Source: Bacteroidia bacterium | Lineage (GTDB): Bacteria > Bacteroidota > Bacteroidia > B-17B0 > Aurantibacillaceae | DNA length: 35,404 nt | Reading direction: 5' to 3' | NCBI GenBank assembly: GCA_020846335.1 | Contig: JADLED010000172.1 | Span: 1 to 35,404 of the forward strand | Shown here: in pieces, positions 7,485-24,656 of the stretch | Layout: the number at the start of each line of letters is the position of its first letter | Numbering within the stretch: the stretch's first letter is position 1 | Notes under the pieces: model-generated | What the model was told of the DNA's origin: nothing | What the model saw: the letters and a program-made list of their open reading frames with translations, nothing else | The model's database searches: none | Made by a program: the position numbers and the translations under genes

Positions 7485-7775
7485 ATGTATATGAGTTGGA
7501 AAAACAGAAACAACACGGTAGGTCTCAGACCTTTTACTAAAACTGACTTGGCAGAGCATTACGGCGTGTCAATCCGAACATTTTACACGATGTTATTGCC
7601 TTATGAGAAAGAGCTTGGCCCAAAATTGGGCAGGTACTATTCGATTAAACAAGTGGAAATCATATTTGAAAACCTGGGTTTGCCACCCAGCCTGCTCAAA
7701 GACGAGTACGAGTTACAACCCAAGGAAGGCTCGTTCCTAAAACCCGTGCAAAAAAAGAATGACAATGCTGCGTGA
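7485..7775 (+). CDS. Small helix-turn-helix protein (paralogue of the 9149 gene)
   Basis: A 96-residue protein. After a short basic N-terminus, residues about 17-70 contain FTKTDLAEHYGVSIRTFYTM, which reads as a helix-turn-helix (LAEHYGVS-x-RTF), followed by LPYEKELG and YYSIKQVEIIFENLGLP. The same layout recurs without gaps, at 18 of 54 identical positions by eye, in the protein at 9149-9370. The role is probably DNA binding, either as an excisionase-like or regulatory protein; the exact family is not known to me. An ATG at 7491 is an equally possible start. It heads the rightward regulator region. Confidence 0.75.
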   Translation: MYMSWKNRNNTVGLRPFTKTDLAEHYGVSIRTFYTMLLPYEKELGPKLGRYYSIKQVEIIFENLGLPPSLLKDEYELQPKEGSFLKPVQKKNDNAA

Positions 7776-8573: not shown

Positions 8574-9152
8574 ATGACACGTATCACAAAAAACAGGGCA
8601 GTAGCCCAAACGCCAGAATCGGCACACGAAGCAAAAATTATTCAGATGCCAACCAATGAACAACCCGCCAAAGTAAAAACAGAAAAATTACTTGACGGAC
8701 TTTGGCAATTCGCACACGCCACGTTGTGGTTTGGAGAAAAGTTTAACAAGGCGGAGATCACTCATTTTAAAAAATTGATTGAGGCACATTTTCAAAAAAA
8801 CAAAACGCCACAACAAAATTTTAAAGAACTGGTACAACGGATTTGTCTGGCTAAACGTTATGCGGATTACAGCAAGGATAAAAAACTGGCTCAAGCAGGA
8901 GACTGGCTCAAAATTGGCAATCCCGAAGGTTTATCCGGCACACTGATTCCTTATGAAGAAATTAAATTCCTTCGTCAATACGAATCAGATTGTGAAACAG
9001 GCATTCAGGTATTAGCCAATGGTTTATTGCTTTACATGGGTTCTCCATTTTATTTTAAAACCTGCGTGAATAGCCTCAGTCGCTTAAATGAATCGGCACT
9101 CATTCAATTTTTTTACAACACCATTATTAACCTTCAATACTATTGCGTATGA
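8574..9152 (+). CDS. Hypothetical protein upstream of the HTH gene
   Basis: A 192-residue soluble protein of no recognised family. The first 40 residues are polar and probably disordered; the rest looks helical (GLWQFAHATLWFGEKFNKAEITHFKKLIEAHFQ, LVQRICLAKRYADYSKD). The C-terminus is rich in aromatic residues. Its stop overlaps the preferred ATG of the next gene in ATGA (9149-9152), so translation of the two is probably coupled and the products may act together. An ACTTTGT sequence about 35 bp upstream, resembling the ACCTTTGTTTTG of the nearby repeats, may be its promoter. Confidence 0.75.
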   Translation: MTRITKNRAVAQTPESAHEAKIIQMPTNEQPAKVKTEKLLDGLWQFAHATLWFGEKFNKAEITHFKKLIEAHFQKNKTPQQNFKELVQRICLAKRYADYSKDKKLAQAGDWLKIGNPEGLSGTLIPYEEIKFLRQYESDCETGIQVLANGLLLYMGSPFYFKTCVNSLSRLNESALIQFFYNTIINLQYYCV

Positions 9153-9370
9153 AAACCAATGATGAAAGAGAAGAAGGCGAATTCGAAGTACGTGTTTACA
9201 CCCGCAAAGAATTACGCTATTTGTACAACGTACCGGAACGTACTTTCCGCAGGTGGCTTGCACCTTTCAGAAAAGAATGGGGAATAAACAACAACAAATA
9301 TTTAACCCCTTTGCAGGTTACTTTAATCATTAACCAGTTCGGAGTACCGGGAATGATAAGGCGTTTTTAA
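9149..9370 (+). CDS. Small helix-turn-helix protein (paralogue of the 7485 gene)
   Basis: A 73-residue protein. YTRKELRYLYNVPERTFRRW forms the helix-turn-helix, with a basic second helix, followed by LAPFRKEWG and KYLTPLQVTLIINQFGVP. It aligns without gaps to the 7485 product, so the two probably arose by duplication and bind DNA in similar ways. The ATG at 9149 overlapping the upstream stop is preferred over a TTG at 9143. The gene is followed directly by the three copies of the 9.4-9.8 kb repeat, a natural candidate target for this regulator. Confidence 0.75.
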   Translation: MKTNDEREEGEFEVRVYTRKELRYLYNVPERTFRRWLAPFRKEWGINNNKYLTPLQVTLIINQFGVPGMIRRF

Positions 9371-9383
9371 TTTTTAAACAAAC

Positions 9384-9480
9384 ATTAAAGACATAAAGCG
9401 GCCACATTCGGACAGTACACAACCAAACCGGAAAGCTTCTCAAATACTAGTAAGACCTTTGTTTTGTAAATCATTACTAA
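9384..9480 (+). repeat. Direct repeat 1 of 3 (promoter-like)
   Basis: A roughly 90-bp unit starting TTAAAGACATAAAGCGGCC, with GGACAGTACACAACC, CCGGAAAGCTTCTC and AGACCTTTGTTTTGTAAATC inside. Copies 2 and 3 differ at only a few positions. The CCTTTGTTTTG near the 3' end could serve as a -7 region. It precedes a 22-codon peptide gene by 31 bp. Confidence 0.92.
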
Positions 9481-9510
9481 TAAAAAAATACTTCGACAAT
9501 CTCAGTAACC

Positions 9511-9579
9511 ATGAAAACAAAAAATAGTATCACCAAAAAAGTAGAGGCGCAAAATAAAAATCCTGTAAACGGAAATTAA
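9511..9579 (+). CDS. 22-residue peptide 1 in the duplicated cassette
   Basis: ATG at 9511, TAA at 9577-9579. The peptide starts MKTKNS and ends QNKNPVNGN; it is polar and basic with no signal sequence or membrane segment. The second cassette encodes a peptide of the same length with 11 of 22 residues identical by eye, sharing MKT, NS and QNKNP.NG. Conservation of length, start, stop and C-terminal motif between copies, with upstream DNA also duplicated, supports a real gene. An alternative is a decayed copy of the start of the 9862 gene, whose N-terminus begins MKIESFNI. A sequence CTTCGACAATCTCAG lies just before the ATG. Confidence 0.5.
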   Translation: MKTKNSITKKVEAQNKNPVNGN

Positions 9580-9664
9580 AGACAAAAAGCGGCCACTTTC
9601 GGACAGTACACAACCAAACCGGAAAGCTTCTCAAACCTTAGTCAGACCTTTGTTTTGTAAATCA
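9575..9664 (+). repeat. Direct repeat 2 of 3 (promoter-like)
   Basis: Second copy, nearly identical to repeat 3 through CAAACCGGAAAGCTTCTCAAA and then CCTTAGTCAGACC in place of TACTAGTTAGACC. It begins inside the stop codon of peptide 1, and ends 23 bp before the ATG of peptide 2. Confidence 0.92.
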
Positions 9665-9687
9665 CAACAACTAAAAATAAAAACGAA

Positions 9688-9756
9688 ATGAAAACATCAA
9701 ATAGTAATATCAAAGTTGTAGAACAACAAAATAAAAATCCTGGAAACGGAAGTTAA
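9688..9756 (+). CDS. 22-residue peptide 2 in the duplicated cassette
   Basis: ATG at 9688, TAA at 9754-9756. The peptide starts MKTSNSNIK and ends QNKNPGNGS. It is the paralogue of peptide 1: same length, and the same MKT and QNKNP.NG ends, with divergence concentrated in the middle (ITKKVEA versus NIKVVEQ). The middle differences are mostly codon-level replacements without frameshift. Whether the peptide is secreted, acts as a leader or regulates a neighbour is unknown. Confidence 0.5.
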   Translation: MKTSNSNIKVVEQQNKNPGNGS

Positions 9757-9848
9757 AGACAAAAAGCGGCCACTTTCGGACAGTACACAACCAAACCGGA
9801 AAGCTTCTCAAATACTAGTTAGACCTTTGTTTTGTAAATCATTACTAC
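9753..9848 (+). repeat. Direct repeat 3 of 3 (promoter-like)
   Basis: Third copy, beginning at the stop of peptide 2 and ending 14 bp before the ATG of the 9862 gene. The order repeat-peptide, repeat-peptide, repeat-long gene shows that each copy sits directly before a start codon. Confidence 0.92.
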
Positions 9849-9861
9849 TAAAAAAAACAAC

Positions 9862-10539: not shown

Positions 10540-10657
10540 CCCAAAGCACCCAAGCAAAAAAACCAACCAAATAAACAAGCAAAAAAATCTGCAACAGCGG
10601 ACTGGCCGAAGGCTTGCCCTAATGGAAGCAAATTTTTAAAGAACAAAAAAAACGAAC

Positions 10658-11245
10658 ATGGCAAACTGGAAAAAAATAGGATGGATAAGCGGAATCAGTG
10701 CAGGTTCATTGGCGGGTTTGTGGTTTCTGACAAGAGGGGTGGTGAATAAAACTGAGTACATCAAACAACTGCAAAGCCTCGCTTCACGCTTGGTCAGCGT
10801 ACCGAGTGCCAAAATACACAAGGTGGATTTAACGGGATTAACCATTCGTGTGGACGTGCAGTTAAAGAACCCCACTCTGATGGGCTTCAAAATGCAATAC
10901 CCCTTTATTAAAATGCAGTACGCTGGGGAGACCATTGGCAGCTCAAGTCCCGTGAATAAAACCATTTCCATACCACCAAGTGGAGAAGCAAAAATTGAAG
11001 CCATCTATTTTAATTTTCCGTTGCGCAGTATGTTAACGCTGATTAAAAGTCTTCTGGTGGCGCAGCAATCAGGCAGTGCAGTGAAACTCGACATCTTGAC
11101 CGAAAGTACGATTGACCCCCTTTGGTATGTGAATCCAAAAACAGGTTTATGGAAAGCAAGAAGCGATTACGGTTTTAAGCAGTTGCACACGATTCCTTTT
11201 GAGGACAAAAAGGAAATCACTCTAAAGAAACAGGAGGATAAATGA
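10658..11245 (+). CDS. Membrane-anchored LEA type 2 (WHy)-like protein
   Basis: A 195-residue protein with one N-terminal TM segment (about residues 6-28, IGWISGISAGSLAGLWFLTRG). The rest is beta-rich with a LEA-2/WHy-like pattern: VDLTGLTIRVDVQLKNPTLMGF, then IKMQYAGETIGSS, then ISIPPSGEAKIEA. WHy domains are small immunoglobulin-like folds found in envelope proteins. In this context it is probably a membrane-bound virion or assembly protein. Its TGA overlaps the ATG of the transglutaminase-like gene (ATGA at 11242), so the two are translationally coupled. It is the first gene of the rightward series. Confidence 0.7.
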   Translation: MANWKKIGWISGISAGSLAGLWFLTRGVVNKTEYIKQLQSLASRLVSVPSAKIHKVDLTGLTIRVDVQLKNPTLMGFKMQYPFIKMQYAGETIGSSSPVNKTISIPPSGEAKIEAIYFNFPLRSMLTLIKSLLVAQQSGSAVKLDILTESTIDPLWYVNPKTGLWKARSDYGFKQLHTIPFEDKKEITLKKQEDK

Positions 11246-13281
11246 AACGGGAGAGTGTAAAAGTCAGAGATGGCAAAGAGTTCGACCATTATTTCCCAAG
11301 GGCCAAACTCATTACCATCGTAAAAAAAGAGGGAGCAACGGTGGCCGACACCTTGCTTTTGATACCTGCTGTTATAAGGGAGACCGCTTTTCACACCCGC
11401 AGGTTTGCAAAGGAAGTCATACAGGCAGATACACTGGAAGAGACCTGCCGCAGACTTTGGGAATTTGTTTATACCTACATCGCCTACAGAAAAGACGAGG
11501 ACGGGAAAGAACAGATTCGGTCTCCTGCAAGAACCTGGCATGACCGTCACAACACGGATGAACAGGGCAATCCGATGGGGGTCGATTGTGACTGTATGAC
11601 GGTCTTCATAGTGAGCGTGCTTTATAATCTGCAAATCAAAAATATTTTTTTTCGGATTACAAAGTACAAGGAAAAGCACTTTGAACACATTTATCCCATT
11701 GTGATTAAACCCAACGGAGAACAAATAACAATAGACTGTGTGGTTCACAATTTTAATTACGAAGAACCTTACAGCGAAAAAAAAGACACAAAAATGGATT
11801 TAGAATATCTCAACGGAGTGTCGGACTCCACAATCGGCAAGTTTACCGATTCAACCGACCTGCTTGGCATCATGAATGAAGAAGAAGCCTTGTCGCAACT
11901 TGGGCGCATCCTTAAACGCAAAGCTTCCGCTGGAGGCAGCACTCCCCCACCTGCTCCAAAAAAGCCTTTTCAAAATCTGAAAAACAACATAACGAAAGTC
12001 ACTCAGAATGTCGTTAAAACCACTCAGAACATTGCCAAGAAGCCAGTTTTAAACCTTAAAAAGTCGCCGGAGCAAAAACAAAAAGCGGCAGAGAAAAAGG
12101 CAAAGGTTAAAAAATTTCTTGGCAAGGGACTTCACGTAACCAACCGAATCAATCCGGTAACGGTTGCACTTCGCAACGGGGTGTTGGCGGGAATGAAACT
12201 TAATTTTTTACAGATTGCCGGGAACCTCCGTTGGACTTATCTCTCAGATGCGGAAGCACAAAAGCGTGGCATCCTGATGGACAGGTTCAACAAACTAAAA
12301 ACGGTTCGTGAAAAACTCGACAAGATATTCTTTGGAGCCGGTGGCAAAGTTGAAAATCTTAAAAAAGCGATTCTCACAGGCAAGGGCAATCATGACAAGG
12401 CCGTTCCATTAAACGGATTAGGAGCCATTCTTTCGGGTAACGTGATGGGACTGAATGAAGATATGCCACTGAATCAACTTTTGGGCCAGGACATTTATTA
12501 TTCAGAAAATGTGGAAGGACTGGAAGGCATAGAAGGACTGGAAGGTTTTAGTGTAAACGGTGGAGACTTAGGTTCGGCTACAGCGGCAAGTGTGGCGGCT
12601 GCCTCCACAGCACTAACAGCCATTGCAGGTTTAATAAAAAGCATCGGCAGTATTTTCCCTAAAAATAATGCCGGAGGTTCTTCAACAGAAACAAGTAGTG
12701 AAACAAGCAGCGACTCAGGCTCACAAACAAGTACCGAAACAACAACCGAATCCGGTCAGGCAGAAAACTCAGGCAGCAGCGCAAGCGAAACAGGAAACGA
12801 ATCTAATCCCCCGGCATCGACCAGAAAAGCGGGAGGCGGTTCAACTAATTCAGGCAGCGATGCGGGCGACAATAACGGAGGCTCTTCTCCCCAAGCAAAA
12901 GCAAACAGTGGTAGCGGAGGTTCGGGCGGCAGCAATCTGCCCGCAACAACAAACAACGCAAACCAGCCGGAAGATGAGAATGGCGGAGACGGAGCCGGAA
13001 CTCCAAGTGCGGCCATAAAAGCGAAAGCACAAAGTTTTTGGGCGAATAATAAAAAGTGGATTAAACCCGCCGGAATAATTGCAGGCACGCTTGGCATATT
13101 GGCACTTGGTTTATATCTGCTAAAGCCTAAAAAGAAAAAAGAAACCAAGTTGGGTTTGCAAGGCTTAAAGAACAAATACAAGCCTAAAACAAACAAGCTC
13201 AATTTGGCAGGGCTTAAATCCAAAAAGAAAAAAGCGGTTACAAAACACGTAGACAAAAAGAAATCCATCCACCTGTTTTAA
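11242..13281 (+). CDS. Transglutaminase-like cysteine peptidase fold protein with C-terminal TM
   Basis: 679 residues. Residues about 60-170 resemble the transglutaminase/cysteine peptidase fold, with Cys116 in MGVDCDCMTVF, His149 in HFEHIYPIV and Asp165 in QITIDCVV forming a plausible triad. A basic helical middle follows, then the repeat VEGLEGIEGLEG (about 420-432), a hydrophobic Ala-rich segment, and a long Ser/Gly/Asn/Glu-rich linker (about 475-590). A TM helix at about 608-627 and a very lysine-rich tail end the protein. It could be a virion enzyme that processes capsid or cell-wall substrates, or a structural scaffold. Size, linker and membrane anchor suggest a virion-surface or membrane-associated protein. 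Function is inferred. Confidence 0.7.
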   Translation: MKRESVKVRDGKEFDHYFPRAKLITIVKKEGATVADTLLLIPAVIRETAFHTRRFAKEVIQADTLEETCRRLWEFVYTYIAYRKDEDGKEQIRSPARTWHDRHNTDEQGNPMGVDCDCMTVFIVSVLYNLQIKNIFFRITKYKEKHFEHIYPIVIKPNGEQITIDCVVHNFNYEEPYSEKKDTKMDLEYLNGVSDSTIGKFTDSTDLLGIMNEEEALSQLGRILKRKASAGGSTPPPAPKKPFQNLKNNITKVTQNVVKTTQNIAKKPVLNLKKSPEQKQKAAEKKAKVKKFLGKGLHVTNRINPVTVALRNGVLAGMKLNFLQIAGNLRWTYLSDAEAQKRGILMDRFNKLKTVREKLDKIFFGAGGKVENLKKAILTGKGNHDKAVPLNGLGAILSGNVMGLNEDMPLNQLLGQDIYYSENVEGLEGIEGLEGFSVNGGDLGSATAASVAAASTALTAIAGLIKSIGSIFPKNNAGGSSTETSSETSSDSGSQTSTETTTESGQAENSGSSASETGNESNPPASTRKAGGGSTNSGSDAGDNNGGSSPQAKANSGSGGSGGSNLPATTNNANQPEDENGGDGAGTPSAAIKAKAQSFWANNKKWIKPAGIIAGTLGILALGLYLLKPKKKKETKLGLQGLKNKYKPKTNKLNLAGLKSKKKKAVTKHVDKKKSIHLF

Positions 13282-13306
13282 GAACCCGAATTAAAAACAC
13301 AGAACC

Positions 13307-13903
13307 ATGACTAAAAAGAAAAAAAATCCTTACGAGGAGAAAGCCAAACAAAAATCGCTGTTTGGATTGGGTAACGTAACCACTTCGGAATCCAAAAAGG
13401 AAAAAGCAAGCGTAACACAAATGATTGCGGGAGGCATTGGTGGTGGCCTCGCCGGAATGGTGACGGGAAGAGCCTCTTTATTGCTCGGCCTTGCCATCAC
13501 CGGAGGTGGTTATTTTATGGGCAGTCCCACAGCGGCCATGTTTGGAGTTGGCCTGATGGCTTCGGGCGGATACCAGACAGCCAGTTCGGTGGTGAATGGG
13601 ATAGGCACAAATGGTGTGGACGGCATCAAAGAGCGTTTTGAAAATTTCAAAAACAGCATCAAACACCAACTCTTCCTGGATAAACTTAAACCAAAAAAAC
13701 AAAAAGACGAAACCACGCAGGGCGTTGGGCAGGTGCAATACTTCCGACACCCACAAACCGAAACAGGCAAACTGGATTTTAGCGAAGCGGAGCGTATTGA
13801 ACGCCAAATCAGCGAAAGCGGAAGACAGTTTGAAACTACGAATGGGGTGGGTGAAATACAAGGTATGGAAGGCGTGGAAGGCGTGGAAGATAAGCTCTTT
13901 TAG
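13307..13903 (+). CDS. Membrane protein of the virion-like module
   Basis: A 198-residue protein. The first 38 residues are lysine-rich. A glycine- and alanine-rich hydrophobic region (about 40-95, MIAGGIGGGLAGMVTGRASL, then LGLAITGGGYFMG, then AAMFGVGLMASGG) looks like two or three short TM helices. The charged C-terminal part ends with GMEGVEGVEDKLF. GxxxG-rich helices are common in membrane proteins of viruses with internal membranes, but also in many others. It shares the V/LEG motif with its two neighbours. No family is recognised. Confidence 0.7.
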   Translation: MTKKKKNPYEEKAKQKSLFGLGNVTTSESKKEKASVTQMIAGGIGGGLAGMVTGRASLLLGLAITGGGYFMGSPTAAMFGVGLMASGGYQTASSVVNGIGTNGVDGIKERFENFKNSIKHQLFLDKLKPKKQKDETTQGVGQVQYFRHPQTETGKLDFSEAERIERQISESGRQFETTNGVGEIQGMEGVEGVEDKLF

Positions 13904-14041
13904 TAAGCGAGAGACAAGAAGCAAGAGACAAGAATCAAAAAAGCAAGCGGTGAATTTCTGAAGGAGGCTCTGTGGTGGAGAACTCTCCCTTAGAACAGAA
14001 CTGCCCAAAAACAAAAAAAGTAAAACCAAAAAAAACGAATC

Positions 14042-14767
14042 ATGATTGACTTAGAAGGAATCAGCGAATACAACAATGCAGGTGCGTTGTTAGGATTGGA
14101 AGGCGCAGAGCGCGACGAATTAATGGGAGCCATTAATGAGTTAGACCCAATCACACGGGTAAGAGTTATTAACAAACTCGCAGGCGGTACACCCCCAAGT
14201 AAGGGCTCCCGTGCGGAAATGGAAAAACACTTTTCCGAACTGCCAAAGCACATCAAAGACGGTTTAAACAAAGGGGAGTTGCGTTTAGCAGACACCATTA
14301 TTTACAGCCGCAAACAAGTGAACTCCAAAACCATTAAGTTGTTTGAAACGCAGGACGTTAAAGCCGTTGGTATGCGTAATATCAGCAACGCCCAATTACC
14401 AAAGAACCAGGCTTTATTGGTAAGCGGTATCTTTTTATTAGCCGCAGTGGTAGCCGATGGTACTTTGAACGACGACAAAATTATGTCGGCCAGTTACGGT
14501 AAAATAGAAGATTTCCCGGCTATCTGCAATGGTGAGTTCACTCTGAAAGCCAACAAAAAAATAATCCTGAGTGATGTTTGTAACACCGTTTTCAAAACCT
14601 CAAACAACCACCAGTTGCCAATTGGTTACTACAAATTAGCCAATCCCCGCATCATTGTGGACGATGTGCAATTGGAGGCCACCATCGAGATAGGTTCTTT
14701 AACCGGAATAGACACCGCCAAGACCTTCTTATACGTGGGCTTGCACGGTACTATTACCACTCCTTAA
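14042..14767 (+). CDS. Candidate major capsid protein
   Basis: 241 residues, no signal peptide or TM segment. An N-terminal helical stretch (IDLEGISEYNNAGALLGLEG through RVRVINKL) precedes a beta-rich body: TIKLFETQDVKAVG, NAQLPKNQALLVSGIFLLAAVV, NGEFTLKANKKIILSD, YYKLANPRIIVDDVQLEATIEIG and FLYVGLHGTIT. The order of a polar loop then strand, 'NxQLPxNQALLVSGI', then 'GxFTLKxNKKIIL' and 'YKLxNPRIIVDDVQL' resembles small double-jelly-roll capsid proteins such as the 269-residue corticovirus P2. That likeness is by eye only. Support from context: it is in the middle of the module, separate from its neighbours by a large hairpin at 14780-14831, as expected for a highly expressed gene. Confidence 0.5.
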   Translation: MIDLEGISEYNNAGALLGLEGAERDELMGAINELDPITRVRVINKLAGGTPPSKGSRAEMEKHFSELPKHIKDGLNKGELRLADTIIYSRKQVNSKTIKLFETQDVKAVGMRNISNAQLPKNQALLVSGIFLLAAVVADGTLNDDKIMSASYGKIEDFPAICNGEFTLKANKKIILSDVCNTVFKTSNNHQLPIGYYKLANPRIIVDDVQLEATIEIGSLTGIDTAKTFLYVGLHGTITTP

Positions 14768-14779
14768 CCCAAGGGCTGC

Positions 14780-14831
14780 TTCAGGCTTCATGCACACATC
14801 TGACAAAACAGATTGTGTATGAAGCCCTGAA
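14780..14831 (+). terminator. Large hairpin after the candidate capsid gene
   Basis: The arm TTCAGGCTTCATGCACACAT (from 14780) pairs with the arm ending ATGAAGCCCTGAA (to 14831), about 20 pairs with one bulge and a few mismatches around a loop of roughly six bases (ACAAAA). No T run follows, so it is more likely an RNA-stability or partial-termination element that sets capsid mRNA levels than a full stop. It may alternatively be a site for processing. Confidence 0.6.
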
Positions 14832-14869
14832 TACGGCTTCACCAATTCACTCACTAAAACTAAAACAGC

Positions 14870-15244
14870 ATGCCAAAGTATTTTTCAAAGGACTTTAATA
14901 TCTCCGTTACAACAGCGGGGCAGTCCATCAAACAAAACTTCGAACTGGATAAAACCATGAAAACGGTGACTCACTTCACCATTTTGTCCAACCGTGAAGA
15001 CCTGCTTTATTACAGAGGCAGCTTTGGTTTGGATATTAACAAAGAAGAAGTCATAACCGAAGGATACAGCGTGAAAAAAGTGGTGTGCTGGCCATCCGTA
15101 CCTGCCGATTTACGCCTCAAATGCATCGGGGCAATGGATGCGGGAAGTGGTGTCATAAAATTTCAATACAGCGACACGCCGGACGGCCTGACCACTTTTC
15201 AACCCTATACGGTAACACTCAGTTTAGAAGGAGAAAGGGAGTAA
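14870..15244 (+). CDS. Small beta-rich protein, possible minor capsid or spike
   Basis: 124 residues, almost entirely alternating polar/hydrophobic strands (FNISVTTAGQSIKQNFEL, TVTHFTILSN, GVIKFQYSDTPDG, YTVTLSLEG). It looks like a single jelly-roll or other beta-sandwich. It is the first gene after the capsid hairpin and ends two bases before the next start. Penton, vertex or spike protein is plausible from composition and position; no homologue was recognised. Confidence 0.6.
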   Translation: MPKYFSKDFNISVTTAGQSIKQNFELDKTMKTVTHFTILSNREDLLYYRGSFGLDINKEEVITEGYSVKKVVCWPSVPADLRLKCIGAMDAGSGVIKFQYSDTPDGLTTFQPYTVTLSLEGERE

Positions 15245-15246
15245 AC

Positions 15247-15822
15247 ATGAACAGGGTAAGGCTTATAGTTAAGGACATCCATATTCAGTATCAGGGAGAA
15301 GTAAATTTTTTCACGATTAAACTCCCCAATAATATAAAACGGATAATTGGCGTAGAGAACGATGCCTTTATTCGCTCCGCTTATAGTGAACCAGTTTTTC
15401 CTTCCAATCCCGATGGTACTGTTGACAACCCCTTGGTGGTTAAATGGGCAGCGCAAAACGCACTCAGTCTGGGCAAAGTAAAATTGCAAAGCCTTGACCG
15501 CACAGGCATATTTTACGAAGCCTGGGTCAGCCATTTGTTTTACGGCAAGGGCGTACCCGACATGAGTTTTGGCAGAATACCTGTGGGATCACTCACCATC
15601 GACCGCAAAAACCGCCCCAAGCCAATGAACCTTCGCTGCAAGCACTTTTTTGTGGAAGGGATGTTTGAGGACTCACTAGGCACTCAACTCAATCACAACA
15701 TGGATTACCACATCCGGATTTTTGTGTGGGTTGAAACTACAGAGCCTGCGAAAGGCATCGCTTTTGAGTTTGAAGACAAAGACTTTGAAGGAGAACCAAA
15801 CCTGTTACAAATTAAAATCTGA
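15247..15822 (+). CDS. Beta-rich virion-module protein
   Basis: 191 residues. The start ATG at 15247 follows the upstream stop by two bases; an earlier in-frame ATG within the upstream gene is less likely. Body strands include VRLIVKDIHIQYQGEVNFFTIKL, VKLQSLDRTGIFYEAWVSHL and MDYHIRIFVWVETTEP, so another beta-sandwich is likely. The region about 110-150 (MSFGRIPVGSLTIDRKNRPKPMNL) is rich in Gly/Pro/Arg loops. It is part of the tight capsid-region cluster and could be a capsid or receptor-binding component. No family recognised. Confidence 0.65.
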   Translation: MNRVRLIVKDIHIQYQGEVNFFTIKLPNNIKRIIGVENDAFIRSAYSEPVFPSNPDGTVDNPLVVKWAAQNALSLGKVKLQSLDRTGIFYEAWVSHLFYGKGVPDMSFGRIPVGSLTIDRKNRPKPMNLRCKHFFVEGMFEDSLGTQLNHNMDYHIRIFVWVETTEPAKGIAFEFEDKDFEGEPNLLQIKI

Positions 15823-15826
15823 CAAC

Positions 15827-16162
15827 ATGAACACCGAACTGGCAATGGCCAATATCAGAAGCCGAATGCGGGACATGGGATATGCCGAAACCGACTACTC
15901 CACAACCCCTAAATACTTTGTGTTACAAGGTGACGGCCATCTGGATATTGAAGCCTATAATGAAATCTATTACCTCGAACATGAACCCGAAGACATGAAC
16001 ATCCGTTCCGACTTTGGCCTGTTTGATTTGAGTTTCACAAAATGCAACGAGCTCAAATATGAACACCGGGGTTTTGTGTCCATTCACAATTACTCAGCCA
16101 TGCCCAATGCGGTGCGCTTTATCCATGTAGTACTTAAACATCAACAAACGACACAACCATGA
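15827..16162 (+). CDS. Small beta-rich virion-module protein
   Basis: 111 residues starting at ATG 15827, four bases after the previous stop. The tail overlaps the next ATG (ATGA at 16159-16162). After a short helical start, the protein has strands typical of a small beta-sandwich (KYFVLQGDGHLDIEAYNEIYYLEH, GLFDLSFTKCNELKYEH, GFVSIHNYSAMPNAVRFIHVVLKH). The pattern of the C-terminal half is weakly like the 14870 protein, suggesting related domains. Its dense packing with neighbours makes it a member of the same structural complex. Confidence 0.65.
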   Translation: MNTELAMANIRSRMRDMGYAETDYSTTPKYFVLQGDGHLDIEAYNEIYYLEHEPEDMNIRSDFGLFDLSFTKCNELKYEHRGFVSIHNYSAMPNAVRFIHVVLKHQQTTQP

Positions 16163-17028
16163 CCTTCGACGCAAAACCATACGACCAAAGTGAGGTAGAC
16201 AACATCAAGCGTGTAATGGCTTCAGCCGCAGAGGATGGCAAACATCTCTGCTATGAAGTAAAACTCGACAACAAAATCATTATTCACGAAACCTCCAATC
16301 TTGAGCGCTTCGACATGATTTATTCCTTCCTTAACGAGAACAGTAAAAAACTGGTCATCTCTGTGAGTTCGCCTAATTCAAAGAACAAAGAGTGGTACAC
16401 TTTTTTAATGCAGGGTGCGGAAGCAGAATCTTCTTTGAACGGGGTAAAAGACGTGGATAAAATTCTGAGCGAGAAGATGACACTTTTTACCGAGCGTGCG
16501 GCAGCCGAGCGCACACTTGAAAAACTACGTGCCACCGAGGAGCAGTTGGAACAGGCCAACGATTATATAGATATCCTTACCGCCAAACTGGAAGAACTCA
16601 AGGTAAAACCAAATCACTTTGGTGGCTTTGATATCGGCAAACTTGCCGGCTCTGCTGTAAGTGAAATCGTGCGCAACTATCCACAAGCACTCGATAAAAT
16701 TCCGGTTCTAAATGGCCTTGCACGTTCCCTGAATGAAATTAGCGAATCTCCAGCACAGGAATCTCAGGAAGGCGGCATGAGCTTTAAGGCCAAAAGTAAA
16801 GAGACTGAAAAACCGGAAAACACCGAACATCAAAGCACCAACGGCAAGACTGAAAAAACAGAGGAAGATGAGAACCTGGCCATTGCTAAAAGGATGAGCG
16901 ATTTTTTATCGGAGCGCCTTACGCAAGAGCAAATCCTAATGGTTGAATCCATTATGGTGGCTTTGGCAGAGAACCCCGAAAACCTGCCCGATGTGGCCGA
17001 ACTGCTCAATATTGAAAAAGGGGAGTGA
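16159..17028 (+). CDS. Coiled-coil protein of the virion-like module
   Basis: 289 residues. An N-terminal alpha/beta region (to about 90) is followed by a coiled coil, ERTLEKLRATEEQLEQANDYIDILTAKLEELK (about 115-150), then a hydrophobic patch around DIGKLAGSAVSEIVRNYPQALDKIPVLNGLARSL, a charged disordered linker (about 200-240), and a helical tail ending LPDVAELLNIEKGE. No TM segment is certain. It starts inside the previous gene's stop codon. It may be a scaffold, spike stalk or assembly factor; no homologue recognised. Confidence 0.65.
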   Translation: MTFDAKPYDQSEVDNIKRVMASAAEDGKHLCYEVKLDNKIIIHETSNLERFDMIYSFLNENSKKLVISVSSPNSKNKEWYTFLMQGAEAESSLNGVKDVDKILSEKMTLFTERAAAERTLEKLRATEEQLEQANDYIDILTAKLEELKVKPNHFGGFDIGKLAGSAVSEIVRNYPQALDKIPVLNGLARSLNEISESPAQESQEGGMSFKAKSKETEKPENTEHQSTNGKTEKTEEDENLAIAKRMSDFLSERLTQEQILMVESIMVALAENPENLPDVAELLNIEKGE

Positions 17029-17037
17029 AGGTGCTGA

Positions 17038-17096
17038 AGGGACTCAAGGGACTCAAGGGATTCAAGAGATAAGAGACATCCTTCGACAAGCTCAGG
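17038..17096 (+). repeat. 9-bp tandem repeats and a CTTCGACAAGCTCAGG element
   Basis: Directly after the 16159 gene, AGGGACTCA occurs twice and AGGGATTCA once in tandem (17038-17064). Further on, CTTCGACAAGCTCAGG (17081-17096) is a short interspersed motif; relatives occur at about 19831 (CTTCGACTTCTCTCAG) and 9491 (CTTCGACAATCTCAG). Confidence 0.5.
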
Positions 17097-17138
17097 AACC
17101 AAGAAACCAACAACTAACAACAATTAAAAAAAGTAACC

Positions 17139-17318
17139 ATGCCAAAATTTGAATTTGAAATCAGCATCACTGCGCCTGTAGAAAAGGACGCAATCCAAAA
17201 AATGAATTGCCTCAATGCCATTGGCAGCAAGCTCACCATCAAAGAGCTGCAATTACTGGCAGACACCGTGAACAGTCCCACCGCACTGGCACTGGCAAAA
17301 AAGAACCTTGGACTTTAA
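17139..17318 (+). CDS. 59-residue hypothetical protein
   Basis: ATG at 17139, TAA at 17316-17318; too short for usual length cut-offs. The N-terminus is a strand (KFEFEISITAPV), followed by helices KDAIQKMNCLNAIGSKL and TIKELQLLADTV, with a final SPTALALAKKNLGL. There is no TM segment. It fits the gap between two larger module genes in the same orientation, and codon use and the amphipathic pattern support expression. It could be a small capsid-associated or regulatory protein. Confidence 0.55.
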   Translation: MPKFEFEISITAPVEKDAIQKMNCLNAIGSKLTIKELQLLADTVNSPTALALAKKNLGL

Positions 17319-17345
17319 AAAAAACAAAACAAGCAACACAAAAAT

Positions 17346-18140
17346 TTGAGCCGCCCACTAAAATATGTAGCAGACAGCAAACAACCTTCACAGGTTCCGG
17401 TACCACTTTTTCCCTCAAACAACCAGACACCTCAAAGCAATCCCACCACGGTTGCAACCGAGCAGGTGCAAACAAAAGAAGGAATGACGGTAAAGGAAAA
17501 ACTGGTGTATGGTTTTTTGGCTCTGCTGGGTATAGGTGGCAGCGCATGGTTTGTAACCAACCTTGTACGAAAAAAAATTGCCAACGCTGAAGAGAAAAAA
17601 AGTTTTGAAGAAGGCACACCCGCCACTACCGCCAAAAAAATAAAGATGGCTTTTGAGAACGATGGATGGTGGGGAACTGATACCAAAGCACTCAGGGAGG
17701 AGTTAATCGCAGTACCCTCCAAAGAAGAATGGGCCAAGGTATTAAAGTCGTATGAAAAACTATACAGCACAGGCACAAATAAAGCCAACCTGATAACCGA
17801 CCTCTCAGACGAATTGCAAAGCACCGAATACAATGAGATGCTGCAAATAATCGATAATAAACCTCAGAAGGCGGGACAGACAACAGGCAATATGTACAGG
17901 GCATGGGCCAAACGATTCAAAGCGGCCTTTGACAAATCCTACGGCTTTTTGCCGGGAACAGACAGCGAGGCGGTGACCGTGACCCTTCGAGAGATCCCGT
18001 CGATACAAGCCCTGATAAACACAGGACTGGAATACAAAAAGTTGTATAACACCAACCTGATGAAGGATTTAGAAAAGGAAGCCGAGTTTGGCCAATGGGA
18101 CGAGTGGAAACAAATCATAGCTCAAAAAAAGAAAAGTTAA
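17346..18140 (+). CDS. Membrane-anchored protein with two annexin-like repeats
   Basis: 264 residues from a TTG at 17346; an ATG at 17484 would keep the TM segment and is an alternative start. After a polar N-terminus a TM helix (about 53-74, LVYGFLALLGIGGSAWFVTNLV) anchors it. Two similar segments follow, at about 97-170 and 189-258. Each reads AF...GTD..A....L..(V/I)PS, then Y.KLY(N/S).., then a (D)L..E region and a final QII. The GTD start and YxKLY/L.DL core resemble annexin repeats; whether calcium or lipid is bound is unknown. A membrane-bound virion protein acting at the host surface is plausible. Confidence 0.65.
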   Translation: MSRPLKYVADSKQPSQVPVPLFPSNNQTPQSNPTTVATEQVQTKEGMTVKEKLVYGFLALLGIGGSAWFVTNLVRKKIANAEEKKSFEEGTPATTAKKIKMAFENDGWWGTDTKALREELIAVPSKEEWAKVLKSYEKLYSTGTNKANLITDLSDELQSTEYNEMLQIIDNKPQKAGQTTGNMYRAWAKRFKAAFDKSYGFLPGTDSEAVTVTLREIPSIQALINTGLEYKKLYNTNLMKDLEKEAEFGQWDEWKQIIAQKKKS

Positions 18141-18172
18141 GTATTCCCGAATCAACACAAAGAACAAGCAAC

Positions 18173-19330
18173 ATGGAAAATAATCAAACAGCCCCTGCAA
18201 AGACAGGAACGACAAAAAAAGTGCTACTCGGTCTTGGTGGCTTGGTTTTGGGAACACTGGCTTTTTTCGGAATTAAAAAATTAACCAACACTAAAAAACA
18301 AACACAAGATGATAACACTGATAAAGAAGGCGGGTCTCTGGATACTGAGAAGCCTGTTCAAACTGCTGCTAATAATTTGCCTCGTACCAATTTACCTGCT
18401 CACAGTCGTGGCGATTCCTTTCCTCTTACTCTTGGCTCCAAAGGACAAAGAGTCAAAACCCTTCAGCAATCCCTTATTGGAAAGTTTGGTGCAGGGGTGC
18501 TTGCAAAGTTTGGTGCAGACGGGTATTTCGGAAATGAACTTGCAGCAGCACTCAGAGAAAGGGGATATAAAATTCCGCTACAAGAAGAAGCCTACAACGC
18601 AATCACGAAAGAAACCAAGGAGCAAGGCTTAAAAAGTTTTGATGCCTTATCAGTAGCCAAGGGCTTATGGGTTGCCATCAATTCTAAAGATTACTCATCC
18701 GCCCTCACCCTTCTTAAATCCATCGGTAACCCCGGCAACTACTCTCTGGTATCGGAACACTTCAAACAGTTTTTTATTGCCGGAGTGCGCCACAGCATTG
18801 TAAACGCCATGCTTAAATTCTTTGATGAGAAATCACAAAAGGAAAACACCAAGCAGGTGTTGACAGAGATAGGACTCAAATACAATTCCCAAAGCGATAA
18901 GTGGTCACTGAGTGGATTTCAGCACGAACAAATACAAAGCAGCAGGAATTGTATTGTCTGGGATAGTCAGGGTAAAAGCACTGTGGTGGAAGCAGGTAAA
19001 ATTTTGGGATGGGTGGTCAGTGCCAACGCACAATCCATCAAATTTCTAAGCCTCGATAATCAGGTCTATACAACCGTTCCTGATTGTGTGCGCATGGTAA
19101 AAGAACCCGAACACTCCCTCACAGGAATCGCTTATAAAAGAGGCGATTGGGTTCAAACTTCCAAGCCCGCATTGGTGGTGATTGAATCCGATAAGCTGAT
19201 AATCGTACCCGCTAATATTCCCCTTGGCAGATATTTAGCCACCACAGACGGCTGGGCAAACATATCGGGTAATCCACATGACACCATGATGCTAAGAATA
19301 AAACAAACGCACATCATGAAGAGCCCGTAA
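18173..19330 (+). CDS. Membrane-anchored peptidoglycan-binding protein
   Basis: 385 residues from the ATG at 18173 (an upstream in-frame start would overlap the 17346 gene). A TM helix at about 16-34 (VLLGLGGLVLGTLAFFGI) is followed by a charged spacer. A PG_binding_1-like domain lies at about 82-131, with LTLGSKGQRVKTLQQSL and FGADGYFGNELAAALRERG, the classic G..V..LQ......DG.FG..T pattern. A longer C-terminal region of unknown fold follows. In a virus-like module this could contact the host wall during entry or lysis. Next gene downstream is an amidase, supporting a cell-wall role. Confidence 0.75.
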   Translation: MENNQTAPAKTGTTKKVLLGLGGLVLGTLAFFGIKKLTNTKKQTQDDNTDKEGGSLDTEKPVQTAANNLPRTNLPAHSRGDSFPLTLGSKGQRVKTLQQSLIGKFGAGVLAKFGADGYFGNELAAALRERGYKIPLQEEAYNAITKETKEQGLKSFDALSVAKGLWVAINSKDYSSALTLLKSIGNPGNYSLVSEHFKQFFIAGVRHSIVNAMLKFFDEKSQKENTKQVLTEIGLKYNSQSDKWSLSGFQHEQIQSSRNCIVWDSQGKSTVVEAGKILGWVVSANAQSIKFLSLDNQVYTTVPDCVRMVKEPEHSLTGIAYKRGDWVQTSKPALVVIESDKLIIVPANIPLGRYLATTDGWANISGNPHDTMMLRIKQTHIMKSP

Positions 19331-19374
19331 GGACAAATTCCAAAAAAACAAACCATTCATAAAAAATAATCACC

Positions 19375-19812
19375 ATGTCAAATACCAAAAGAAATATCGA
19401 ATACATCGTCGTGCATTGCACCGCCACTCCCACCAACACCACAATGGAAAGCATCAAACGTTACTGGAAAGAAACGCTCAAGTGGAATAATCCGGGTTAC
19501 CATTACATCATTCACCGTGATGGCAGAATCGAGCAACTTCTTGACGAAAGTCAAATCAGTAACGGTGTGAAAGGCTTTAATCCTGTTTGTGTGAACCTGT
19601 CTTATATCGGTGGCGTGGATAAAAACAACAACCCCACGGACAACCGCAACCGTGCGCAGGAGGATGCCATGTTCAATCTGATAGTTCACCTGACAGAACG
19701 TTATCCGAAAGCGAAAGTATGTGGCCACCGTGATTTTCCAAACGTTCACAAAGCCTGTCCAAGTTTTGATGTAAAGCAATGGCTGGCCAATTACGAACCC
19801 AAGCTTGGCTGA
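19375..19812 (+). CDS. N-acetylmuramoyl-L-alanine amidase (T7-lysozyme-like endolysin)
   Basis: 145 residues, close to the 151 residues of T7 lysozyme. It belongs to the Amidase_2/PGRP fold, which cleaves the bond between N-acetylmuramic acid and L-alanine. Zinc ligands fit: His14 in YIVVHCTA, His118 in CGHRDF and Cys128 in ACPSF. GYHYIIHRDGRI at 41-52 is the typical core. There is no signal peptide, so release would depend on the membrane-perforating proteins encoded just downstream. It is the lysis enzyme or a virion-borne wall opener. This is among the firmest functional calls in the element. Confidence 0.92.
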   Translation: MSNTKRNIEYIVVHCTATPTNTTMESIKRYWKETLKWNNPGYHYIIHRDGRIEQLLDESQISNGVKGFNPVCVNLSYIGGVDKNNNPTDNRNRAQEDAMFNLIVHLTERYPKAKVCGHRDFPNVHKACPSFDVKQWLANYEPKLG

Positions 19813-19914
19813 CCTCAATGACATTACATCCTTCGACTTCTCTCAGAGCAGGGATTAATAAATTTCAAAATTAAGCAAATCAACATTTCCCATTTAACAT
19901 TCAATATTTCTCAC

Positions 19915-20682
19915 ATGAGTTTGCAAAAAATAAAAGCCATTCTCCGTCATAAAAAGTACCGGATTTATTCACGCCCTTATGAGCTTAACATTGTTGGCCT
20001 GAGAAGCAAATCAACAGAACCGAACCGCTTTGATGACGAGATTCATGTCTTTTATAAAGTTTCTGCTCTCAACTGGCATTACCACGTTTTCAGTGCAACG
20101 ACTGACCCAGGCACCTATTGGTTGCGCCAACCCATGCAACCGCAGGGAACGGCCATCCTCTCGCAGGGACAATATGTGGATGCCTACGAGTTGGGATTAC
20201 ACAGGGGTCAATACACCGCCCTTGTGCAACGCAAACCACTAAGTATTGTGCGGGATTACAATCGGGATGCTGTTTTGGATTTTAACAACGGTCACACAAT
20301 CAATGGCCAGTTCGGAATTAATATTCACCGTGCCAACAGAACAGGAAGTACCCTGCATGTAGATAAAAATTCAGCAGGCTGTCAGGTATTTAAAAACGCT
20401 TCCGACTTTGAGTTTTTTATGGGTTTGTGCCATCACCACAAACAACTCTACGGCAACCACTTTACATACAGCCTGATTGATTTCCGGGCATTAAGAAGAC
20501 AAAACCTGCGCTATGTTTTGTCAGGCGTTGGTCTTGCCGGATTGATTGGGCTGGCCTATGCCACAGTGGTACATGGCGATAAGATTAAAAGTATAGCGGG
20601 AGAAATCAGCGATTTTTTTTCAGACCTCCTACAAACCAAAAAACAAACAACAACAACTCCAACACATGAAAATCAGTTTTAA
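19915..20682 (+). CDS. L,D-transpeptidase-like wall enzyme with C-terminal TM
   Basis: 255 residues. INIHRANRTGSTLHVDKNSAGC at 136-156 fits the YkuD-type signature HX(14-17)SxGC, with candidate catalytic His138 and Cys156. In general such enzymes cross-link or cut peptidoglycan peptides; in phage-like settings a cutting role is plausible. The C-terminal part holds one TM helix (about 200-219, YVLSGVGLAGLIGLAYATVV), so it is membrane-anchored. No N-terminal signal is seen. It follows the amidase and its end overlaps the next small membrane gene by 17 bases. Assignment to YkuD is from the motif alone. Confidence 0.6.
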   Translation: MSLQKIKAILRHKKYRIYSRPYELNIVGLRSKSTEPNRFDDEIHVFYKVSALNWHYHVFSATTDPGTYWLRQPMQPQGTAILSQGQYVDAYELGLHRGQYTALVQRKPLSIVRDYNRDAVLDFNNGHTINGQFGINIHRANRTGSTLHVDKNSAGCQVFKNASDFEFFMGLCHHHKQLYGNHFTYSLIDFRALRRQNLRYVLSGVGLAGLIGLAYATVVHGDKIKSIAGEISDFFSDLLQTKKQTTTTPTHENQF

Positions 20683-20905
20683 ACAACTCCTGTTGCAATT
20701 ACTACAGGATAAAGACGGCAACTTCTCTATGCGTGAAGCCATAGCACTTATTTATGTCCTAATGAGCATCATTGCCTGGATATCGCAGCAGTTTTTCGGT
20801 CACACCGTGCCGGAGTATATGTTTTACTCCTTCATGAGTATGATAGGTGCATCGGCCTTCGGTTATTCACTTGAACGAAAAAGTGACAAAGACCCGAATT
20901 CCTGA
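20666..20905 (+). CDS. Holin-like small membrane protein
   Basis: 79 residues with two hydrophobic segments (about 22-42, EAIALIYVLMSIIAWISQQFF; about 51-68, MFYSFMSMIGASAFGYSL) and charged ends (KDGNFSMRE; SLERKSDKD). Small size, two TM helices, a charged C-terminus and location directly behind two wall-degrading enzymes are the standard features of a class II holin, which would permeabilise the inner membrane for the amidase. The start overlaps the previous gene. Family membership is not established. Confidence 0.65.
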   Translation: MKISFKQLLLQLLQDKDGNFSMREAIALIYVLMSIIAWISQQFFGHTVPEYMFYSFMSMIGASAFGYSLERKSDKDPNS

Positions 20906-20969
20906 AACAAGAATCAAGCGGCAAGAAACAAGAATCAAAAATTAATAACTAAAAATCAAAAACTAAAAC

Positions 20970-21602
20970 ATGAAAACACTGCACATCATTATTTCGTTTT
21001 GTATCGGCTTGTTGCTCGGACACCTTTTGTTTAACCACACCAAAGAGGCGGGCGGCATTTCGCAAAACGAAAGCACAAACATTCTTCAGAAAACCAACAG
21101 CGTGGACTCTGCTTATCAGGTGCAACAAAACCTGCTGATAGAACGCAACAGGCAACTTAGCCTCCAATTAAAGGCAAGTGATTCACAACTGCTTAACTCC
21201 GAAAATAAACTCAGACAGCAACGCCTTCGCCTTCTTGCACTCACTTCGCAAGATAAAGACAGCAGCCTGTTTGTGTGTTTGGAAAGGGACAGTCTTGTGA
21301 ATGAAATAAACCAACTCAACACCATAACCGACACGGTGGTTCATTTCTATAAACGCAAAGTAGAGCTTACTGACAGTTTGGTGGCGGTGAGGGATTCGCA
21401 GGTGGTAGGTTGCAACAGGGCTTACCTGCAATTAAAGGGCCTGATTGGTGAACAGGCTGTTCGTGAAAACAAACTAAGGGAAGACTTAAACACCATTCTA
21501 AAGCAACAGAAACGAAAACTCCTACAAAACAAATTCATGGCCGCAGGGATGCTTTTTGTGTCGGGCATCGCTACAAGCCTGATTGTAAAATCAAGGCAAT
21601 AA
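20970..21602 (+). CDS. Coiled-coil membrane protein of the lysis region
   Basis: 210 residues: an N-terminal TM helix (about 4-22, LHIIISFCIGLLLGHLLF), a long periplasm-facing coiled coil (about 40-180) rich in Gln/Leu/Arg heptads, and a second hydrophobic segment near the C-terminus (FMAAGMLFVSGIATSLIV). The N-TM plus coiled-coil layout resembles an i-spanin, the protein that bridges inner and outer membrane at lysis, but the second TM segment is unusual. It may instead be a membrane structural protein. No Rz1-like lipoprotein gene was found in or around it. Confidence 0.6.
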   Translation: MKTLHIIISFCIGLLLGHLLFNHTKEAGGISQNESTNILQKTNSVDSAYQVQQNLLIERNRQLSLQLKASDSQLLNSENKLRQQRLRLLALTSQDKDSSLFVCLERDSLVNEINQLNTITDTVVHFYKRKVELTDSLVAVRDSQVVGCNRAYLQLKGLIGEQAVRENKLREDLNTILKQQKRKLLQNKFMAAGMLFVSGIATSLIVKSRQ

Positions 21603-21614
21603 AAACAAAACACT

Positions 21615-21827
21615 ATGCTAAACGAAAAAACAATAGTATCCGGGGTATCCCTTGTTGCTTCGCTGGCCACCTATTTCTATGCACGGGAATCGCAACGTGA
21701 TGTTGTGCCTTACGTGATGGTGGGTGGTTTTATTGGAGCCATCCTTGGGGAAGCCATCGCCGGAATAGTCTTGGACGACAAAAAAAAGAACAACAAAAAG
21801 GACAACGATAACCCTGAAAAAAAATAA
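21615..21827 (+). CDS. Small two-TM protein of the lysis region
   Basis: 70 residues: two hydrophobic segments (about 7-23, VSGVSLVASLATYFYA; about 30-52, VPYVMVGGFIGAILGEAIAGIVL), a highly charged lysine-rich tail. Possibly a second holin or antiholin next to the 20666 protein, or a small virion membrane protein. It lies 12 bp after the coiled-coil gene and 9 bp before the fibre gene. Confidence 0.6.
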   Translation: MLNEKTIVSGVSLVASLATYFYARESQRDVVPYVMVGGFIGAILGEAIAGIVLDDKKKNNKKDNDNPEKK

Positions 21828-21836
21828 AGAAACATC

Positions 21837-22484
21837 ATGGCAACACAAATCAGTAATAGCGGGGTGAGTTTAAAGATAACCACCAACGGTGCGGTTAAAT
21901 ACGTCACCAAAAGTAGCATTCTAACAGTAAGCGTGCTCACAGGCACAATTATTAAAATCGATATCGGTCGTGGTGCGCTTTACAATATCTATATTAATCA
22001 GAGTGATGTAAGCTCGCCCACAAGCACAAGCGTAAGCGACCTGCGCGACCAGATAGAAGCCATGCTGCAACCCACGGGATCTTCGGGAGGTGACGCAACC
22101 GCAGCCAATCAGTTAGCCCAAACCACCGAGCTAACCAATATAAAAAACTCGATTGCTACGCTTAATAGCAGCATGACCAGTTTGAATACAGGCATGGGAA
22201 CTCTTAATACGGGGATGGGCAGTCTTAACACCAGTATGGGTACGCTCAACTCCAACGTGAACATTATAAACGACAAGGTTTTTTACGAAGCAAAACTTGT
22301 GGACGAAACCAACGGCCTGATTGTTTACAAAGGCTTTGCCAATCCAGGAACCCGTGGAACAGACCCTAACTGGGCCATCCAAAGGGTTACCAACGACGAT
22401 GGTGTACTTTCATATCACTGGGCGAGTGGGGACAAAAACTTCGACAAAACCTGGGACAACAGAGCTTCTTACACTTATTCCTAA
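21837..22484 (+). CDS. Trimeric-fibre-like or receptor-binding protein
   Basis: 215 residues. The N-terminal domain (to about 60) is beta-rich. Residues about 104-145 are heptads: SLNTGMG, TLNTGMG, SLNTSMG, TLNSNVN, i.e. a 7-residue periodic helix that would form a trimeric coiled coil. The C-terminal domain (about 148-215) with DPNWAIQRV and YHWASGDKNFDKTWDNRASYTYS resembles a motif seen at the end of many phage structural proteins (W..A.G...F...WDNRA.YTYS). It is the last gene of the long rightward series and is followed by a terminator. A host-binding or virion-decorating role is inferred. Confidence 0.65.
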   Translation: MATQISNSGVSLKITTNGAVKYVTKSSILTVSVLTGTIIKIDIGRGALYNIYINQSDVSSPTSTSVSDLRDQIEAMLQPTGSSGGDATAANQLAQTTELTNIKNSIATLNSSMTSLNTGMGTLNTGMGSLNTSMGTLNSNVNIINDKVFYEAKLVDETNGLIVYKGFANPGTRGTDPNWAIQRVTNDDGVLSYHWASGDKNFDKTWDNRASYTYS

Positions 22485-22490
22485 ACTATC

Positions 22491-22519
22491 AAATCCCTGC
22501 CTTGCCGGGCAGGGATTTT
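22491..22519 (+). terminator. Rho-independent terminator of the virion-like series
   Basis: AAATCCCTGCC (22491-22501) pairs with GGCAGGGATTT (22508-22518) around a six-base loop, followed by a short T run. It separates the structural/lysis series from the methyltransferase block. Confidence 0.85.
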
Positions 22520-22550
22520 CAATTATTAGTCAATTAAAATTTAAAAAACA

Positions 22551-23801
22551 TTGGTTGTGAAAAACACTTCTGACATAATCCTTCTTGACTTGTTTAGCGG
22601 AACCGGAGGTTTTGCAAAGGGATTTATAAATACGGGTTTCCGAATTAAGGAGCATTATTTTTCTGAAGTAGATAAATACGCCATTGCCAATTACAACTAC
22701 AATTTTAAAGATGCGAAAAACATCGGGGACATCACCCAAGCCAAAGGCTCTAAAATCAAAAGACCCAACATTATTACATTTGGTTCACCCTGCCAGGATA
22801 TTTCAATTGCTGGCAAACAAGCAGGGCTTAAAGGAAAGCGAAGCCGATTATTTTTTGAAGCAATCCGGCTTATCAGAGAGTGCCGACCCGATGTTTTTAT
22901 CTTTGAAAACGTCAAAGGGTTATTCTCCAGTAACCAAGGCAAAGACTTTGAAGTCGTACTTAAAGCATTTGCCGACCTTGGGGTTTATGACATCCAATGG
23001 CAACTGCTTAATACTAAGTGGTTTTTACCCCAAAACAGAGAGCGGGTTTATTTTGTCGGATTTCTTAGAGGCCAATCCCGACCCCAAATATTTCCTATCG
23101 GAGAAGGCCATCAAAGGCATCATGCGCTCGATAAAGAAGAACCTCAAAGGAAAACTGTAAGCCCCACCATCGACACCAAGGTGGGCGATAACACACACCG
23201 TTCTCCTTATGTCTTGCACTGGAAAGGTTCCGTTAAAAAGTGGAACGTGGATAAAATGCAAACAAGTCCGACGCTCAACACGCAGCAGGATTGGGTACGC
23301 AATCCACTAATACTTGAAAAGAAAAAGAAACAGAAAAAACAACAAAGTAAAAAGTTCCTGTTTCATGTACCCGAAGCAACCCGCAAAGGATATGCTACCG
23401 CCACCGAAGGCGACAGTATTAATTTATCCTTCTTAGAAGCCAACCTTCGCAGGGGGAGGGTTGGCAAGGGCACAGCCAACACCATCGACACCAGCGTCAA
23501 CCAATACACCTTAATGAAAGGTAACCTTCGCAGGTTAACGCCCGTGGAATGTGAACGCTTGCAGGGATTTCCAGATGACTGGACAAAATCGGGATTAGTC
23601 GATGGCCTTAAAATTGAAATATCGGACGCACAACGCTACAAATTATTAGGCAATGCAGTAAGTGTGGCCGTGGTGCAAGCCATAGCACAACGACTGCTTG
23701 GGAAAGCACAAACACAAATTGATCCACCGCAGAATGACAAAGTGGCTCTGCTCACTCTGGAATTGCAACTCGAACTCTCACATTTTAAAAAAGCAGCATG
23801 A
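22551..23801 (+). CDS. C5 cytosine DNA methyltransferase
   Basis: 416 residues. It methylates C5 of cytosine in a specific site with S-adenosylmethionine. Motifs in order: I LDLFSGTGGF (12-21), IV TFGSPCQDIS with catalytic Cys81, VI FENVKG, VIII QNRERVYFVGF, target-recognition region in the middle (about 185-320), IX LTPVECERLQGFPDDW, X YKLLGNAVSV. It is complete. The start could be TTG 22551 or GTG 22557. No cognate endonuclease gene is adjacent, so it is probably an orphan enzyme that protects the element's DNA from host restriction. Its last four bases overlap the next gene's start. Confidence 0.93.
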   Translation: MVVKNTSDIILLDLFSGTGGFAKGFINTGFRIKEHYFSEVDKYAIANYNYNFKDAKNIGDITQAKGSKIKRPNIITFGSPCQDISIAGKQAGLKGKRSRLFFEAIRLIRECRPDVFIFENVKGLFSSNQGKDFEVVLKAFADLGVYDIQWQLLNTKWFLPQNRERVYFVGFLRGQSRPQIFPIGEGHQRHHALDKEEPQRKTVSPTIDTKVGDNTHRSPYVLHWKGSVKKWNVDKMQTSPTLNTQQDWVRNPLILEKKKKQKKQQSKKFLFHVPEATRKGYATATEGDSINLSFLEANLRRGRVGKGTANTIDTSVNQYTLMKGNLRRLTPVECERLQGFPDDWTKSGLVDGLKIEISDAQRYKLLGNAVSVAVVQAIAQRLLGKAQTQIDPPQNDKVALLTLELQLELSHFKKAA

Positions 23802-24655: not shown

Positions 24656-24656
24656 C

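Follow-up and report, generated by a model that had tools for sequence, protein, structure and literature searches.

Phage and prophage operons can be preceded by tandem promoters, several lying in series before one operon, and in leader-peptide attenuators a short frame lies between the promoter and the main gene. The locus described here resembles both arrangements, with several putative promoters in series before one operon and two short frames placed between promoter and main gene. Unlike tandem phage promoters, its copies are near-identical and appear locally duplicated, with short frames between them, and relatives usually carry a single copy before the main operon. It differs from leader-peptide attenuators in having no terminator, stable hairpin or run of one regulatory codon, and in that a third putative promoter lies downstream of both frames.

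Published Bacteroidota promoters comprise a -7 box, TAnnTTTG, and a -33 box, TTTG, with a mean leader of 33 nt (PMC6847099). The -7 box and the leader lengths found here fit these promoters. The repeats share with the primary sigma-ABfr promoters (PMC6847099) the nAnnTTTG -7 box, an A-rich leader of 30 to 50 nt and the absence of a Shine-Dalgarno sequence. They differ from them in carrying element-specific blocks (GGAAAGYG and YCAAACC, between -25 and -9) and, in many relatives, 10-bp repeats further upstream. The -7 box of the copies described here, GACCTTTG, matches five of the six defined bases of TAnnTTTG, the first T being replaced by G (by C in many relatives), and a clear TTTG at -33 is not seen in them; these promoters may thus depend on an activator.

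Three tandem repeats and the family promoter

The window, that is, the whole stretch of DNA analysed, is one complete contig of 35,404 bases from a Bacteroidota genome assembly. Three tandem repeat copies of about 100 bp each are found in it, together with the following features:

9385..9485, plus strand: putative promoter copy P1; -7 box GACCTTTG with its A at 9455; 30.2 bits with the relatives-only matrix
9490..9510, plus strand: extra stretch of about 20 bp in the P1 leader, dispersed-repeat-like by sequence matches (ACTTCGACAATCTCAGTAACC)
9511..9579, plus strand: frame 1, 22 codons (MKTKNSITKKVEAQNKNPVNGN), probably a non-conserved stub
9576..9675, plus strand: putative promoter copy P2; -7 box A at 9646; first bases form the stop of frame 1; 36.2 bits
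9688..9756, plus strand: frame 2, 22 codons (MKTSNSNIKVVEQQNKNPGNGS), probably a non-conserved stub
9753..9856, plus strand: putative promoter copy P3; -7 box A at 9823; first bases form the stop of frame 2; 33.5 bits
9862..10539, plus strand: 225-aa ORF, first gene of the operon; no known family, with homologues in four other genomes of the host family

The initial annotation had described a 90-bp repeat occurring three times before start codons; the three copies are confirmed but are somewhat longer than proposed. As it stated, the first two are followed by 22-codon frames (9511 and 9688) and the third by the 225-aa ORF (9862), which P3 directly precedes. Start codons in the window lie 39-56 nt downstream of the -7 box, the last bases of the three boxes being 9461, 9652 and 9829. 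Within an 85-nt core, from -68 to +16 around the -7 box, the copies are 93-96% identical (79/85 for copies 1 and 2, 82/85 for 1 and 3, 81/85 for 2 and 3), and self-BLAST returned one match of 320 bp (82%, E 2e-89) and another of 104 bp (96%). This similarity is far beyond chance. Assembly stutter was rejected as the source of the copies because each has its own substitutions. Apart from the three copies themselves, no close relatives of the repeat DNA were found in 87 genomes of the host family, nor were any found in viral contigs or phage records.

The extra bases of copy 1 sit just 5' of the frame 1 ATG. They resemble a repeat scattered through related genomes, matching genomes of genus g7 at about 91% (query positions 92-124), and are similar to CTTCGACAAGCTCAG at 17081. 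Short dispersed-repeat-like sequences of the form CTTCGACAA(T/G)CTCAG occur at 9491 and 17081, one of them immediately 5' of the first peptide start codon.

A promoter weight matrix was built from 34 non-redundant relatives only, with the window excluded. It identified the three window copies and no other site above 6 bits within the 35 kb, and its top score on 20 random windows was 16 bits. Leave-one-out scores of the relatives were mostly 20-48 bits, a range that includes the window copies (30-36 bits), which align without gaps to the relatives' consensus. This consensus reads roughly AAA-n-CC-GGAAAGYG-n-(S)YCAAACC-n-YTG-n4-ACCTTTGT-n-CCGnAA and lies some 12-70 nt 5' of the start codon; conservation within it is strongest in the ACCTTTGT box, whose distance from start codons is as expected. 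The relatives carry a matching promoter at the equivalent place, before a ~60-aa ORF or a homologue of the 225-aa gene. As in the relatives, the window copies lie between genes of the 9149/8574 type and the main operon, and many relatives carry a second promoter copy before the upstream regulatory pair (the 8574/9149 homologues).

Across 48 distinct loci, window included, 74 promoter sites were found. An ORF of 58 aa or more follows 71 of them; two of the copies in the window and one in the related element L085 lack such an ORF. In a wider class-level sample, six elements outside the training set contained 10 sites, each of them preceding an ORF of 61 aa or more. Leaving aside L126 (one and the same contig as L047), no other element of that sample had a site exceeding the matrix threshold. 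The promoter-like character first proposed for the repeat is thus strongly supported by window-free matrix hits and by a conserved position in dozens of relatives, and these comparisons point to the repeat as the probable promoter of the element's main operon.

The surrounding element and its candidate regulator

The repeats lie in an integrated, prophage-like element of Bacteroidota whose genes span about 3.4 kb to 29.6 kb, much of this content being conserved in relatives. It encodes a large serine recombinase, two small related helix-turn-helix-like proteins, an amidase, two DNA methyltransferases, a large ATPase-domain protein, a ParB-like protein and a long run of genes on the same strand. 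The large serine recombinase ORF (3378-5072, minus strand) overlaps by its 3' end a tRNA-Ser gene (3402-3491, plus strand), which suggests integration at the tRNA. Features flanking the repeats are:

7485..7775, plus strand: 96-aa paralogue of the 9149 protein; weak PHROG match to an excisionase/regulator family
9149..9370, plus strand: 73-aa predicted helix-turn-helix-like protein, candidate regulator, directly upstream of the putative promoters
10658..28100, plus strand: downstream gene run of 20 ORFs with gaps of up to 138 nt, including a 241-aa protein at 14042

The three promoters would drive the 10658..28100 run, in a main operon of about 18 kb. Genome searches revealed four distant relatives of the 225-aa protein, and pattern scans revealed none. 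In L010, the homologue of its gene (about 13294-13857, minus strand) has an in-frame TGA stop. In nearly all relatives a gene for a ~60-aa protein lies directly 5' of the 10658 homologue; it is missing from this place in the window (10540-10657) and was not found elsewhere in it. The 241-aa protein (14042-14767) is strongly conserved, occurs also in L012-L040 and L119-L120, and has matches in 32 of 87 host-family genomes and 29 of 395 class genomes, with up to five element copies per genome. The predicted structure, of only moderate confidence (pLDDT 62), has many β-strands and resembles a jelly roll, and the top match of the model among solved structures is a Sulfolobus polyhedral virus 1 protein, with a low TM-score. 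Searches of 50,697 phage and 72,556 plasmid records gave no match to this protein. The element may represent an unrecognised, non-tailed, virus-like lineage.

The model of the 9149 protein has a strand-helix-helix-strand-helix arrangement (mean pLDDT 75), for which a fold search gave nothing significant. Matches of the small helix-turn-helix-like protein to ribosomal protein S4 among PDB sequences were short and weak, and were dismissed. Upstream of the family promoter, direct repeats spaced by 10 bp were detected (lag-10 z=9, lag-20 z=4), a signal absent from random stretches of the same loci; in the window copies alone it is not significant (P 0.2-0.4). Such repeats are seen at -95 to -34 in relatives including L010, L047, L048 and L050; the L048 example, CTACCAATAG CTACCAAAAA, is a possible array of regulator sites. 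Given these repeats, the region upstream of the promoter probably binds something, and their spacing suggests head-to-tail binding by a small regulator.

Duplications comparable to that of the window were observed in four related elements. In L010, the promoter lies before the homologue of the 225-aa gene and again before a ~60-aa gene (113 bp, 86%). L082 carries a duplication of the regulator gene plus promoter (401 bp, 78%), and L086 an 81-aa ORF between two promoters (68 bp, 78%). L085, a distant element, has a 45-codon frame between two promoters (93 bp, 80%), and thus independently presents a doubled promoter with a short frame in between. As these four cases show, duplication and gene turnover at the operon promoter are recurrent in the family, which offers the simplest account of the window.

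The two 22-codon frames

Frames 1 and 2 are equal in length and align without gaps. They differ at 14 of 69 bases, with two differences in the last 30 nt and 12 in the first 39. Their stop codons, TAA at 9577 and 9754, belong to the next repeat, in the string 'TTAAAGACA'. This string is also present 5' of copy 1 (9385) and terminates no peptide there. The initial annotation had pointed to conserved peptide ends; the N- and C-termini are indeed shared, but they adjoin the repeats, and the conserved C-terminus is largely repeat-adjacent DNA, since the stops are repeat-derived and the last 30 nt hold so few differences. It had also noted that substitutions keep frame and stop. Both frames are open, but a neutral simulation leaves such a frame open with a probability of 0.55, and the stops come from the repeat. 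In 27% of random local sequence, a frame of 22 codons or more begins at a first ATG placed 12-60 nt downstream.

Eight codons have changed between the frames, seven non-synonymously and one synonymously, giving a synonymous fraction of 0.125 against 0.14 expected in the neutral simulation. The base changes peak at codon position 2 (3, 7 and 4 at positions 1, 2 and 3), and 13 of the 14 are located in residue-changing codons. The promoter is better conserved than the frames (6/85 versus 14/69 differences, P=0.017). This comparison of two copies only, which has low power, gave no sign of purifying selection on the encoded residues. The frames are absent from all of about 60 related loci, and motif, blastn and tblastn searches found no homologue of the peptides. 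Such an absence is what the initial annotation had named as refuting its peptide reading, although no relative above ~76% identity in the best-conserved protein was found, so that a lineage-specific peptide would escape detection. No terminator or stable hairpin was found at the frames (fold z-scores of 0.3, -0.2, 1.0 and 1.3), nor any Rfam family. With no homologues, neutral-like changes and neither a terminator nor a structured leader, the two frames look like DNA caught between duplicated promoters, that is, unconserved by-products of promoter duplication and not real peptide genes. The peptides are perhaps translated, without sign of selection for them.

Alternatively, the frames could be true small genes for regulatory peptides, inhibitors or toxins, both served by their own copy of the element promoter. 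Promoter copies of the family normally head a real gene (71/74 sites), and the frames begin at the usual distance and keep equal length, gap-free alignment and shared termini. Set against this are the lack of a homologue in any related locus, the preponderance of residue-altering changes (7 of 8 codons) with their peak at position 2, the frequency with which neutral drift or random local sequence leaves such a frame open (55% and 27%), and the supply of stop codons by repeat DNA. We consider this explanation unlikely, and the paralogous peptide genes of a decision module proposed initially find no support in the relatives or in the pattern of changes. There is likewise a slim chance that the frames give rise to functional peptides that evolve fast and are restricted to this lineage. 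Each would be made from its own promoter copy along with the structural genes, and would act either on the regulator of the element or on the host.

A derivation of the frames from decayed promoter-headed genes is doubtful, whether from an accessory gene since lost, from the ~60-aa gene missing here or from the beginning of the 225-aa gene. Such a derivation would agree with the promoter-gene-promoter cassettes seen at this spot in L010 and L086, and with the loss from the window of the ~60-aa gene that nearly all relatives keep before the 10658 homologue. The 225-aa gene start, already suggested in the initial annotation, shares an 11-mer with frame 1 (P about 0.04-0.07), which is no more than a hint, and frame 2 gives no significant match; this is the best similarity of the frames to any gene, none being significant, and nothing convincing was found across all loci. 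As for the repeats themselves, they are most unlikely to be protein-binding, packaging or recombination sites that lie before genes by chance. The family's 10-bp spaced repeats, absent from random stretches, would suit such sites, but the letters most strongly conserved are those of the ACCTTTGT box at the distance expected from a start codon, and a same-strand ORF starts after almost every site.

A model of serial promoters

The reading we favour, with a probability of roughly 0.7, is that the operon promoter of the element is present in three tandem copies separated by short, unconserved frames. An operon promoter copy would have been tandemly duplicated twice, so that three promoters now follow one another ahead of the 225-aa gene and the ~18-kb run. 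The primary sigma factor of Bacteroidota should recognise each -7 box, and transcription would start from all three copies. The 9149 protein, and perhaps the 7485 protein, probably binds just upstream, by which a neighbouring helix-turn-helix-like protein would control the three promoters together. The result would be more initiation, or more regulator binding, ahead of one operon, and presumably a higher operon output. The frames would be bases trapped between promoter copies, starting at the usual gene start and stopping in the next repeat, and P1 and P2 transcripts may be translated in them. One point speaks against such stubs: both frames stayed exactly 22 codons long though the leader length changed.

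The tempting reading of this locus as a peptide signal thus gives way to what is most likely a promoter duplication. A testable promoter model is gained for a widespread, uncharacterised family of Bacteroidota elements. Should the neighbouring regulator be confirmed, the number of promoter copies would act as a simple dial for the main operon.
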